Source: a virus | Direction: 5' to 3' (one strand) | DNA: 36,647 nt | IMG/VR virus record: IMGVR_UViG_3300025128_000140 | Location: 1-36,647 of that record | Part shown: positions 12,377-30,035 of the stretch, piece after piece | Layout: the number at the start of each line of letters is the position of its first letter | Numbering within the stretch: position 1 is the stretch's first letter | The notes under the pieces: model-generated | Told to the model about the DNA's origin: nothing | What the model saw: only the letters and a program-made list of their open reading frames with translations | Databases searched by the model: none | Made by a program: the position numbers and the translations under genes

Positions 12377-12713
12377 CTTCTTTCTTTTTGTTTTTTAACT
12401 TTCTTAAGGCTTGATGCTCCAGAAGCTTAATTAAAAACTCTGAGTATATCTCTTCATTACCAGTTACTATTTGGTGACACTTTTTGCATAATGTTATTCC
12501 ATTAAGCGTGTCGAATCGTAGGGCAGGAAAATCTGACCACTTTCGTATATGGTGGACCTGTAAGTTCTTCTTTGATCCACACGAAGGCCATTGGCACTTA
12601 TTCCCGTCTCTTTTTCTAACCTGCTTTCTGAATTTTGCGTAAGCTGGATCAGACATATTCCTTGCAGAATTACGTCTCCACCCAAACTTCTTTGGCCTCC
12701 TCTTTTTTCTCAT
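12369..12713 (-). CDS. HNH endonuclease
   Basis: The protein has 114 residues from the ATG at 12713; a GTG at 12725 is an alternative. It carries FRKQVRKRDGNKCQWPSC, then LQVHHIRKWSDFP and LCKKCHQIVTGNE. The pattern is Cys-x4-Cys, His-His, Asn and Cys-x2-Cys, a complete HNH motif with structural zinc ligands. HNH proteins beside terminase genes are known to assist cleavage at packaging. It overlaps the dehydratase gene by about 44 nt. A homing role is less likely because it is embedded in the operon with overlapping ends. Confidence 0.8.
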   Translation of the reverse strand: MRKKRRPKKFGWRRNSARNMSDPAYAKFRKQVRKRDGNKCQWPSCGSKKNLQVHHIRKWSDFPALRFDTLNGITLCKKCHQIVTGNEEIYSEFLIKLLEHQALRKLKNKKKEDE

Positions 12714-13797
12714 CTGCAATATCACTTTCTAACATTTGATGTACGAGGTCTTCAAAGCCTATCTCTCTGGTCCATCCAAGAGCCCTCTCTGCCTTGGCTG
12801 GGATGCCTCTCAGATACTCAACTTCTGCTGGCCTGTAAAATTTTGGGTCTATGACTACAAAGGCCTCATAATCTGCTACACCGATATGGTCAAATGCAAT
12901 CTGTAAAAAATCTCTAACACTATATGTTTCTCCTGTAGAGATAACATAGTCATCGGGGTTTTTTTGCTGTAGCATTAACCACATAGCATTAACATAATCT
13001 TTGGCGTGACCCCAATCCCTGTAGGCATCAATGTTTCCTAGGCGCAACTTTGGAAACCTAAGCTCTTCGTTACTAGATACACAAATGTCATCGCCGTCAA
13101 ACACTAAACCACTGCTTTCAATAAGTACATCATGTTTAGACAGCCACCCAGAGAATCTTGCCAGCCACTTTGTAATTTTACGTGTGACAAAGTTTTCTCC
13201 TCGGCGTTCGCTCTCATGGTTAAATAATATTCCACAACATCCAAATACTTTATAACCATCTCGATACATCCGCACCAAATGGTGGGATGCTAGCTTTGCA
13301 GCAGCATATGGGCTTTGAGGCTCAAACGCCGTGTTTTCATCTTGATACATTTTATAATCACTTCCGTCAGGATTTACCTCAGCAACGGTAGGCATGTCTA
13401 CGTTCTTTCCAAACATCTCGCTAGTAGAGGCCTGATAGAATTTTGTTTCCGGTGAAAATCGCCTAATAGCCTCTAGGAAATTGACTACTCCGATTGTATT
13501 GACTTGGAACGTATAGTCTGGTTGATCAAACGATGTTTTTACATGTGACTGTGCTGCAAGGTTATAAACTTCATCAGGCTTATGCTTTTCTATAATTGAA
13601 TAGACGGAACCCGAATCAGATATTTCATATTCTTCTATGTGAAAGCTGCTTGACTTAATATGTTCTATTCTAGATTCTGTGTTTGTGCTGGTCCTTCTTT
13701 TTAGACCTACCACCTCATAATCTTTGGACAATAAAAGTTCCGCTAAGTAAGAACCGTCTTGTCCGGTTATCCCTGTCACTAAAGCTTTCTTTTTCAT
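12670..13797 (-). CDS. gmd: GDP-mannose 4,6-dehydratase
   Basis: The protein has 375 residues. The Rossmann NADP motif GITGQDGSY is at residues 9-17, the catalytic STSE at 125-128 and the Tyr164-x3-Lys168 pair in SPYAAAK. Other family blocks are YNLAAQSHV, RRGENFVTRKIT, GNIDAYRDWGHAKDYV and YYRP-like FYRPAEVEYLRG. It converts GDP-mannose to GDP-4-keto-6-deoxymannose, the precursor of fucose and related sugars. Compared with bacterial enzymes it has an extra segment of about 30 residues near 215-250 and another near 130-150. It sits inside the packaging operon with a 4-nt overlap upstream. Role inferred: altering host surface glycans or supplying a sugar nucleotide. Confidence 0.92.
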   Translation of the reverse strand: MKKKALVTGITGQDGSYLAELLLSKDYEVVGLKRRTSTNTESRIEHIKSSSFHIEEYEISDSGSVYSIIEKHKPDEVYNLAAQSHVKTSFDQPDYTFQVNTIGVVNFLEAIRRFSPETKFYQASTSEMFGKNVDMPTVAEVNPDGSDYKMYQDENTAFEPQSPYAAAKLASHHLVRMYRDGYKVFGCCGILFNHESERRGENFVTRKITKWLARFSGWLSKHDVLIESSGLVFDGDDICVSSNEELRFPKLRLGNIDAYRDWGHAKDYVNAMWLMLQQKNPDDYVISTGETYSVRDFLQIAFDHIGVADYEAFVVIDPKFYRPAEVEYLRGIPAKAERALGWTREIGFEDLVHQMLESDIADEKKEEAKEVWVET

Positions 13798-23220: not shown

Positions 23221-23253
23221 GTGACCTAACGTGTCACGACCATGTGCGATAAT
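23221..23253 (+). promoter_or_regulatory. Palindrome-type promoter 1
   Basis: GTGAC-N7-GTCAC at 23221-23237, then 10 bp, then GATAAT. There is no recognisable -35. The palindrome centre lies near -31, as expected for an activator or an operator. Confidence 0.7.
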
Positions 23254-23275
23254 ATATATATAAGGAGTTAAGGAA

Positions 23276-23422
23276 ATGATGAACAACAGAAAAAAAGCAA
23301 TAGCAATGCACAACGCGAACAAGAAACGCTTTGCAGATATATTCACCGGATGCTTAGCACACGGCACATTGAAGCAAACACAGAAGAAAATAAAAACCTT
23401 TAAATTGCCAAAAAATAAATAA
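23276..23422 (+). CDS. Small basic protein
   Basis: The protein has 48 residues, very rich in Lys and Asn (NRKKAIAMHNANKKRFADIF, TLKQTQKKIKTFKLPKNK). Two ATGs are adjacent (23276 and 23279). AAGGAG lies close upstream. It may bind nucleic acid. It is controlled by palindrome-type promoter 1. Confidence 0.55.
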   Translation: MMNNRKKAIAMHNANKKRFADIFTGCLAHGTLKQTQKKIKTFKLPKNK

Positions 23423-23435
23423 TCAACCGGCACGA

Positions 23436-23468
23436 GTGACCAACCGTGTCACACCCCTATGGTATAAT
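23436..23468 (+). promoter_or_regulatory. Palindrome-type promoter 2
   Basis: GTGACCAACCGTGTCAC at 23436-23452, 10 bp, then a perfect TATAAT. No -35 hexamer. Confidence 0.75.
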
Positions 23469-23504
23469 GTAGGTATAACAGAAACGATAACGAAAGGAAA
23501 TAAA

Positions 23505-23708
23505 ATGATTAAAGGTACTAAAACAGCTACAATAGACGGCTTCACTTTTGAATACATCCCGAGCCTGAGAGTGTTGGGCGTCACTAGTCCAACCGGCGGA
23601 ATCGAAATCTACCACCAACTAAGCTACGAAAAAGCCAGCGAAATAGTTGGAGAAATTTTAAAAAAAGCGTCAACCAGTGACCTAACGTGTCACACCCATA
23701 GACGATAA
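23505..23708 (+). CDS. Hypothetical protein overlapping the next promoter
   Basis: The protein has 67 residues (MIKGTKTATIDGFTFEYIPS, then GGIEIYHQLSYEKASEIVGE). The last residues (TSDLTCHTHRR) are encoded by the palindrome and -10 of the following promoter. AACGAAAGGAAATAAA precedes the ATG. Unknown. Confidence 0.6.
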   Translation: MIKGTKTATIDGFTFEYIPSLRVLGVTSPTGGIEIYHQLSYEKASEIVGEILKKASTSDLTCHTHRR

Positions 23709-23709
23709 T
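23677..23709 (+). promoter_or_regulatory. Palindrome-type promoter 3, inside a coding end
   Basis: GTGACCTAACGTGTCAC at 23677-23693, identical to the first copy, 10 bp, then GATAAT at 23704-23709. Confidence 0.7.
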
Positions 23710-25670: not shown

Positions 25671-26072
25671 ATGGTAGCATGTCACAAGATAGAGCCAAAC
25701 AAAAGAGTATATGTGTACTGGAATTTACATCGCAAGTGTTTCAGTATTAGGCAAGGTACGCGAGTTGTTAGGCACATGAATAGTGTTTGCCTTAAAGATG
25801 TTAAGTATCTAGTTCAACCGGCTGGTCGTGCTAGGGTTCTAAGGGAAAAGAAAAAGAATGTTCATGCAGGATTGTCTGCATACTATATTGATCATGTTCC
25901 AGTTCCGGTGATTAGCTTTGACGTTACATATAATCCGTATAAGTATGAGACGTTTGTGAACACTGAAGATCATGAACCTCAGGAATGGTCAGAGTATGCT
26001 TATCTAGAGCGGCAGGGACATAGCCCTACTATTGAGGCTATATTTACTCGGGAATATTTTCAAAAAAGTTAA
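25671..26072 (+). CDS. Hypothetical basic protein
   Basis: The protein has 133 residues. The first 70 are strongly basic and beta-prone (RVYVYWNLHRKCFSIRQGTR, RARVLREKKKNVHAGLSAYY). The last 40 are acidic. GGGAG lies 8 nt before the ATG. It forms a single-gene unit. A nucleic-acid contact is plausible; no family recognised. Confidence 0.65.
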   Translation: MVACHKIEPNKRVYVYWNLHRKCFSIRQGTRVVRHMNSVCLKDVKYLVQPAGRARVLREKKKNVHAGLSAYYIDHVPVPVISFDVTYNPYKYETFVNTEDHEPQEWSEYAYLERQGHSPTIEAIFTREYFQKS

Positions 26073-27336: not shown

Positions 27337-27365
27337 TTGACAAATGCCGATCTATATGATATAAT
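27337..27365 (+). promoter_or_regulatory. Sigma70-like promoter, CGAT spacer
   Basis: TTGACA, 17 bp, TATAAT with GCCGATCTATA. Confidence 0.9.
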
Positions 27366-27393
27366 TGAAGTATCAACACAAGGGAGAAAAGAT

Positions 27394-28185
27394 ATGTTGA
27401 AGTTTTCAAAAGCAAACGCAAAAACAGAAGCACTTGCCAACGATGCGGAATTAGCAGAGTATTTACTTGACAAGCGTAAAATTTATTCGTTGGATTTGTT
27501 AAGCGGGTATTCGTGTCCCGCTGCGGAAAAATGTCTGTCAAAAGCCGTTCAATTACCAACAGGCAAGCGTAAAATAAAAGACGGATTAAAAACAGAGTTT
27601 CGTTGTTTTTCAGCGTCTCAAGAAGTGCAGTATAATAATGTATACAATCTACGTAAGCATAATTTTGATATGCTTCGTAAACTATCGTGCGGTGAAATGG
27701 TTGACATTCTAAACCAGTCCCTTCCCGAAAATGCGGGCATTGTACGGATACACGTTGCGGGTGATTTTTTTAGTGAAGAATATCTAGAAGCTTGGTATTC
27801 AATCGCATTGCTTAATCCTAGCACGTTATTTTATGCTTATACAAAGTCGTTGCGTTATTGGCTTAAAATTAACGAGTTTCCGATATTGCATAATTTTGTT
27901 TTAACTGCTTCGTATGGTGGTCGTTATGATTATCTAATCGACGATAATACTTTTAACTTTCGTTCGGCTAAGGTTGTATTCAGTGAAGCAGAAGCGGAAG
28001 AATTAGGATTAGAGATTGACCACGACGATTCGCACGCCGCTAAACCGTCAATGAGGAATCAAGATTTTGCACTACTGATTCACGGCACACAACCGGCAGG
28101 ATCTGAAGCGGCAACGGCATTAAAAGAATTAAAAGGAAAAGGTAGCTATTCGAGAAAAAAGAATAAAGTTCTTGCAATCGGATAG
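27394..28185 (+). CDS. GP88-family phage protein
   Basis: The protein has 263 residues. It matches the family named after mycobacteriophage gene product 88: an early Cys motif YSCPAAEKC (residues 39-47), a third Cys in FRCFSASQE (71), then RIHVAGDFFSEEYLEAW (118-134) and FYAYTKSLRYW (146-156). The family is widespread in phages and its function is not established; the conserved Cys, Asp and Arg suggest a metal or cofactor site. GGGAG precedes the ATG. The next promoter lies inside its 3' end. Confidence 0.75.
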   Translation: MLKFSKANAKTEALANDAELAEYLLDKRKIYSLDLLSGYSCPAAEKCLSKAVQLPTGKRKIKDGLKTEFRCFSASQEVQYNNVYNLRKHNFDMLRKLSCGEMVDILNQSLPENAGIVRIHVAGDFFSEEYLEAWYSIALLNPSTLFYAYTKSLRYWLKINEFPILHNFVLTASYGGRYDYLIDDNTFNFRSAKVVFSEAEAEELGLEIDHDDSHAAKPSMRNQDFALLIHGTQPAGSEAATALKELKGKGSYSRKKNKVLAIG

Positions 28186-29090: not shown

Positions 29091-30035
29091 ATGGCTCATC
29101 AAGTAGAGAAAATGGTTTTTGCTGGTGCTACTCCGTGGCATGGACTGGGAACTGAAATCGACCAAGATACAGGTTTCTGGGAAGCGTTCGACAGTGCTGG
29201 CTTAAACTGGGAAGTGGACACAAAACCGCTGTTCACTTCTGACGGTGAGAAGGTTTCTCATCGTGCCGCCTATCGAACCTCTGACAATAGGATTCTTGGT
29301 ATTGTTGGAAAGCGTTGGACACCTTTGCAGAATCGTGATGCGTTCGAGATTTTCGAACCATTGGTCGATGCTGGTGAAATGGTGATTCACACCGCTGGTT
29401 CACTTCGTAATGGTGAACGTATTTGGGCGTTGTGTCAACTGAATCAGAATAACAGCGAAATCGTCGCAGGCGATGAAGTTGCTAAGTTTGTTCTGTTGTC
29501 TAACGGTCACGATGGAAAGTTGGCGGTACACTTTGGATTTACTCCAATTCGTGTCGTGTGTGCTAATACCGAAGCGTTAGCCCGTGGAAGTAAAGCATCT
29601 AAATTGGTTAGAGTTCGTCACTCGCGTTTCGTAAAGCAAAATGTGCAAGAGTTGCGTGACGTTATGAACTTCGCCAATCAAGAGTTTGAAGCTACTGCAC
29701 AGCAGTATCGTTACCTAGCGTCGAAGTCAATCAACTCGGACGACCTTGACAAATACATCAAGATTGTTCTCGGTGTTGACAATAAGTCTGACGACGAAAT
29801 GACAACCCGCTCTAAGAATATCATCCTTCAGGTGAAGGGATTATTCGAGGGTGGTAAAGGTTCTGATATTGTCGGAGTTCGGGGAACTTACTGGGGAGCG
29901 TATAACGCTGTCACTGAATACCTGAACTACTCTAAGGGTCGAACTACTAACAACCGTATGGATTCCATGTGGTTCGGGCAGAATGGCACTATGAGTCAGA
30001 AGGCACTCGATACCGCATTGGAGATTAGTGCATAG
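29091..30035 (+). CDS. DUF932 phage/plasmid-like protein
   Basis: The protein has 314 residues. The start (AHQVEKMVFAGATPWHGLGT), the block RWTPLQNRDAFEIFEPLVDA, then FVLLSNGHDGKLAVHFGFTP, RVVCANTEALA and RHSRFVKQNVQELR are hallmarks of the DUF932/TIGR03299 family of phage and plasmid proteins. Function is not established. It is the largest recognisable gene of the cassette region, with its own promoter, a GGGAG ribosome site and an ornate terminator. Confidence 0.9.
   Translation: MAHQVEKMVFAGATPWHGLGTEIDQDTGFWEAFDSAGLNWEVDTKPLFTSDGEKVSHRAAYRTSDNRILGIVGKRWTPLQNRDAFEIFEPLVDAGEMVIHTAGSLRNGERIWALCQLNQNNSEIVAGDEVAKFVLLSNGHDGKLAVHFGFTPIRVVCANTEALARGSKASKLVRVRHSRFVKQNVQELRDVMNFANQEFEATAQQYRYLASKSINSDDLDKYIKIVLGVDNKSDDEMTTRSKNIILQVKGLFEGGKGSDIVGVRGTYWGAYNAVTEYLNYSKGRTTNNRMDSMWFGQNGTMSQKALDTALEISA

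Follow-up and report, generated by a model that had tools for sequence, protein, structure and literature searches.

At the middle promoters of phage T4, the MotA element lies near -30 in place of a -35 hexamer, upstream of the -10. LexA-independent DNA-damage responses run by WYL activators are known in mycobacteria and in Caulobacter (PMC5656591, PMC12340889). DriD, the ssDNA-binding DNA-damage activator of Caulobacter crescentus (PMC12340889, PMC4211646), spans the -35 region in its structures, with sigma region 4 held between its two DNA-binding domains, and anchors polymerase at promoters whose -35 and -10 are poor; the promoters in these DriD–polymerase structures carry a G at -14 (PMC12340889). 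The motif of the mycobacterial activator PafBC is tTGTCRgtg-N8-TannnT (PMC5656591).

We analysed a 36.6-kb linear virus record (IMG/VR IMGVR_UViG_3300025128_000140, positions 1 to 36,647), here called the window. A sequence-only reading had pointed to three palindromes, each 10 bp ahead of a TATAAT or GATAAT hexamer and without a -35, and we confirmed all three, at 23221, 23436 and 23677 (Table 1). The distance from site end to -10 hexamer is exactly 10 bp every time, two of the three promoters have an extended -10 (upstream TG) that can be read directly from the sequence, and a search of the three for a convincing -35 found none, the best candidate being GTCACA at site 3 (9/12 overall). Exact GTGAC-N7-GTCAC occurs in the window at these sites and nowhere else, against a chance expectation of about 0.035 in 36.6 kb by simple arithmetic; matches with two mismatches number nine elsewhere, which is chance level (12 found versus 8.8 expected). 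The remaining promoters of the region are of a strong TTGACA-N16/17-TATAAT type, so the palindrome promoters form a separate class, as had been proposed, and the three units do stand side by side, each site ahead of a small ORF (48, 67 and 84 codons). Packing is tight, since the unit 2 ORF has site 3 within its 3' end. Downstream of the three units are relatives of mycobacteriophage L5 gp82, Pfam GP88 and DUF932 proteins (25671-26072, 27337-28185, 29091-30035; + strand), and a GDP-mannose 4,6-dehydratase-like gene (12670-13797, - strand) sits just past the terminase in the structural-gene region.

Table 1. Promoter elements and ORFs of the three units in the window, and planctomycete genes found behind the same element, by locus.
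Feature	Position or locus	Strand	Sequence or remark
Site 1	23221..23237	+	GTGACCTAACGTGTCAC, candidate polar activator element
-10 of unit 1	23248..23253	+	GATAAT, TGC upstream (extended -10)
ORF of unit 1, 48 aa	23276..23422	+	protein begins MMNNRKKAIAMHNANKKR
Site 2	23436..23452	+	GTGACCAACCGTGTCAC
-10 of unit 2	23463..23468	+	TATAAT, TGG upstream (extended -10)
ORF of unit 2, 67 aa	23505..23708	+	3' end overlaps site 3
Site 3	23677..23693	+	GTGACCTAACGTGTCAC, same letters as site 1
-10 of unit 3	23704..23709	+	GATAAT
ORF of unit 3, 84 aa	23745..23999	+	protein begins MIQLGTANGWKETPAEFTKHLAECG
nrdJ(-like)	L066, L070		
dprA(-like)	L065		
recA	L076, L183, L188		
imuA-like	L088		
addB-like	L096		
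csrA(-like)	L100 (G003), L176 (G218)		
vWA gene	L083, L090, L189		

The three window sites share the consensus GTGACC(T/A)A(A/C)CGTGTCAC. What had been described as a 17-bp palindrome is palindromic in its arms; its centre is conserved yet asymmetric (GTGACC-TA-AC-GTGTCAC), and the site is therefore polar. Because it occurs in one orientation only, a symmetric operator for the repressor envisaged near -31 fits poorly, and the other regulator envisaged there, an activator contacting polymerase from a site that replaces the -35, is the most likely. CRP sites have the form GTGA-N6-TCAC, and a CRP-like site was rejected on the window spacing of GTGA-N9-TCAC. A role for the palindrome as an RNA element or as an N4-type hairpin promoter in single-stranded DNA is extremely improbable: although the 5-bp arms could pair in two of the three sites, folding is no better than that of shuffled sequences (z = -1.5, -0.2 and -1.1), which speaks against a stable extruded hairpin, Rfam gave no match, a normal -10 follows, and the loop bases are conserved, as they are in the chromosomal sites described below.

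A search of relatives for the palindrome at a fixed distance from a -10, which the sequence-only reading had proposed, recovered the strict unit (site, 10 bp, -10) in 61 stretches of IMG/VR contigs. The same arms with a flipped centre gave one stretch, on a contig already in the set; no stretch came from the reversed string or from gaps set to 7 bp or 14 bp. The gap to the -10 is 10 bp in 90 of 93 unique phage sites, most of which had been chosen with that gap. In a logo of 98 unique sites, GTGACC and GTGTCAC are invariant and flank a conserved, non-palindromic centre, and a C usually leads into a -10 that reads GATAAT in most cases. Upstream, A-rich stretches recur about every 10-11 bp, as DNA curvature or contacts with the alpha-CTD might explain. 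Whole phage records of up to 163 kb, scanned without the -10, hold one to five sites each (reversed control, 0), nearly always grouped in one region of small genes and mostly on the same strand. The carriers are uncultured, mostly aquatic phages. The proteins encoded behind the sites are small and varied, hardly annotated and without a recognisable repair function; what stays constant is the promoter. The 48-aa family of unit 1, for which neither PHROG nor Pfam gave a match, recurs behind the element at 12 distinct phage sites, the 67-aa family of unit 2 at 10, and the 84-aa family of unit 3 (no database match) at 7.

Among 84,980 bacterial and archaeal genomes, one per species, the strict unit occurs in seven stretches, with about two expected by chance from simple arithmetic. 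Four are Planctomycetota chromosomes; the other three are one stretch inside a Lentilactobacillus gene and two contigs of the same phage group that are apparently mis-binned in a Thalassolituus MAG (L068) and a Cytophagales MAG (L071). Exact sites are present in 65 of 100 genomes of one planctomycete family, here called Pirellulaceae-like, with a near-empty reversed control, and a phylum-wide draw of Planctomycetota was almost empty of them. Translations of the ORFs downstream, from which we read the gene names, place recA and further repair genes behind the element (Table 1). The core GACC-N4-(G/T)TGTC lies upstream of recA in sense orientation in 60 of 78 family regions, and in antisense in 0 of 78 (shuffles, 0.28%). 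The -10 of planctomycete recA stands at the phage distance of 10 bp, often with the phage-type CGAT start, and the non-consensus CGATA(A)T -10 is common to the phage and planctomycete elements. Preferred centres are TAAC in phages and AGAC or AAAC in planctomycetes; among the planctomycetes sampled, TAAC does occur (G145, G146, G147, G183 and G220) but in a minority.

Two genomes carry many copies. The 9.0-Mb planctomycete chromosome G219 has 19 exact copies (L156-L174); behind many of them comes a degenerate repeat, N10-TCTAAT ... CTTTCTCAATTTGGTA, in which no ORF is clear. This may be a dispersed repeat, a mobile element or a family of small RNAs that the putative damage promoter apparently drives. 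In G218, several sites of the form GTGACCTGATGTGTCAC precede near-identical transposase-like genes of the REP-associated type (L179, L181, L182, L184, L185), and recA and csrA are also behind the element.

Palindromic arms ahead of recA and other repair genes might suggest a host LexA (SOS) operator, with LexA covering the promoter until damage releases it. We consider this very unlikely. Seven genomes with exact sites lack LexA (G001, G002, G132, G146, G173, G196 and G218), one of which, G218, has 13 exact sites, that of recA included; the recA core shows no association with LexA presence (P = 0.66); the lexA genes of the same family carry a different upstream palindrome, of the TATACGAGTGTACA type; and the site is strictly polar, in place of the -35. 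The reading as a LexA-dependent operator, which the lexA promoter should have in common with these sites, was accordingly rejected. The likely LexA box of the family, TATACGAGTGTACA / TATTCATCTGTTCA, is seen before lexA (L123, L222, L223, L225) and also in several recA promoters (for example L286 and L304); like its mycobacterial counterpart, recA may therefore be served by a pair of damage promoters.

A candidate regulator is a conserved planctomycete protein of about 345 aa with WYL and WCX domains and, by inspection, an HTH-like segment at its N terminus; its significant PDB sequence matches are Caulobacter DriD and WYL fragments that align identically, and nothing else. G001, G002 and G003 each encode exactly one WYL protein. 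Across the family, the recA core is present in 57 of 64 genomes with an orthologue of this protein and in 3 of 14 without (P = 1.1e-6, an optimistic value because related genomes are counted as independent). Seven genomes thus have the orthologue without the core, and three, G127, G193 and G185, have the core without the orthologue; in G127 and G193, both unfinished assemblies, no WYL protein of any kind was found. Presence or absence of all sites per genome is weakly associated with the orthologue (P = 0.02), probably blurred by incomplete genomes and non-canonical centres; the single-locus recA test is the cleaner one. The three exceptions would be expected if some other host activator read the element, a reading we regard as improbable given the strong WYL association across the family and the exact match to the half-site, spacing and -10 register of DriD.

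A phage-encoded activator or sigma-appropriation protein of the T4 MotA type, the example named in the sequence-only reading, would likewise explain the fixed distance to the -10, the missing -35, the centre near -31 and an element common to related phages. We judge it unlikely: the identical element, with the same spacing and -10 register, stands at bacterial repair genes, and our screen for WYL proteins found none in the phage loci or in 13 large records from phages with the element.

The comparison with DriD can be made base by base. The DriD target oligo GACAGTAACTGTC reads GAC-N7-GTC, and so do the window sites GACCTAACGTGTC and GACCAACCGTGTC; from GTC to the -10 there are 12 nt both in the window sites (GAC-N7-GTC-N12-GATAAT) and in DriD promoters, and the mycobacterial motif tTGTCRgtg-N8-TannnT likewise resolves to GTC-N12-(-10). 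The register that we derived places a G at -14 in all three DriD promoters, although that of the bapE promoter depends on a weak site match (9/21); agreement with the G at -14 stated by the authors of the structures supports the register (PMC12340889). The window thus has, as DriD promoters do, half-sites separated by N7 and a -10 at a fixed 12 nt, and lacks a consensus -35, with the 12 nt also in the promoters of PafBC, so that the window promoters fit, by anatomy, a DriD/PafBC-type class of putative WYL-activated damage promoters. Placement ahead of repair genes, a further feature of that class, is seen in the planctomycetes (recA and imuA-, addB-, dprA- and nrdJ-like genes) and not for the phage genes.

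We therefore consider it probable that the three sites are DriD/PafBC-type promoters that are read by a host WYL activator and have been copied by phages. The activator, a DriD-like homodimer that senses ssDNA, would bind the GAC-N7-GTC half-sites flanking the missing -35 and hold the housekeeping polymerase on a -10 lying 12 bp past the second half-site; binding of the element by the planctomycete WYL protein, its activating homodimeric form and ssDNA as its signal are what we infer from these parallels. In planctomycetes its targets upon DNA damage would be recA and further repair genes. Phages would have copied the promoter ahead of one to five small genes and, seemingly without a WYL protein of their own, would use that of the host. 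As infection makes ssDNA, processing of, or damage to, the DNA of host or phage would switch the units on, be it during injection, replication, breakdown of the host genome or attack by host nucleases; small takeover or counter-defence proteins are a natural guess for the products. We also infer a planctomycete with the WYL protein as the host, together with the use that the phage would make of the element. Weighing against this host, a search of 241 genomes from the planctomycete family gave no match to the window terminase, and GC is lower in the phage (about 0.40) than in the host loci seen (0.51-0.61). Relatives of the terminase reach only 23-30% and belong mostly to Bacillus and Staphylococcus phages, and no cultured phage relative was found at the DNA level. 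On balance we lean, with somewhat less assurance, towards the wider picture, in which these uncultured aquatic phages are joined to a LexA-independent, ssDNA-sensing host damage regulon whose WYL activator switches small takeover or counter-defence genes, and in which a DriD-like protein is a main controller of recA in the sampled planctomycetes.

Our literature search returned no description of a WYL-run damage response in planctomycetes and none of phage genes under one; as far as that search reached, this promoter type is new in phages and in Planctomycetota. Because the phage promoters match the putative damage promoters of planctomycetes in both bases and spacing, our data suggest that the phage reads the DNA-damage alarm of its host to turn on small genes. 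If so, the virus senses that alarm by activation rather than by the lifting of a repressor, and the small genes that follow the element can be counted as candidates for roles in damage or defence. For a phylum whose promoters are little known, the gain would be a regulon together with a testable promoter architecture, GAC-N7-GTC-N12-(-10), and for a large group of uncultured phages it would be a promoter-based clue to the host.

Set beside known systems, the window promoters resemble T4 MotA promoters, as generally described, in having an element near -30 that replaces the -35; MotA, by contrast, is phage-encoded and recognizes another box, whereas the class here is a host one. With DriD promoters they share GAC-N7-GTC, 12 nt to the -10, the want of a usable -35 and a homologous WYL-WCX protein; they differ in their outer bases, GT..AC here versus TAC..GTA in DriD, in a planctomycete regulon headed by recA, nrdJ and addB-, imuA- and dprA-like genes, and in the existence of phage copies. 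They are like the PafBC-dependent RecA-NDp promoters of mycobacteria (PMC5656591, PMC11804915) in placing a TGTC half-site 12 nt before TAnnnT without a -35, and in a regulon that includes recA alongside LexA control; PafBC, however, is a heterodimer acting on a non-palindromic site, whereas here two inverted half-sites go with one WYL protein.
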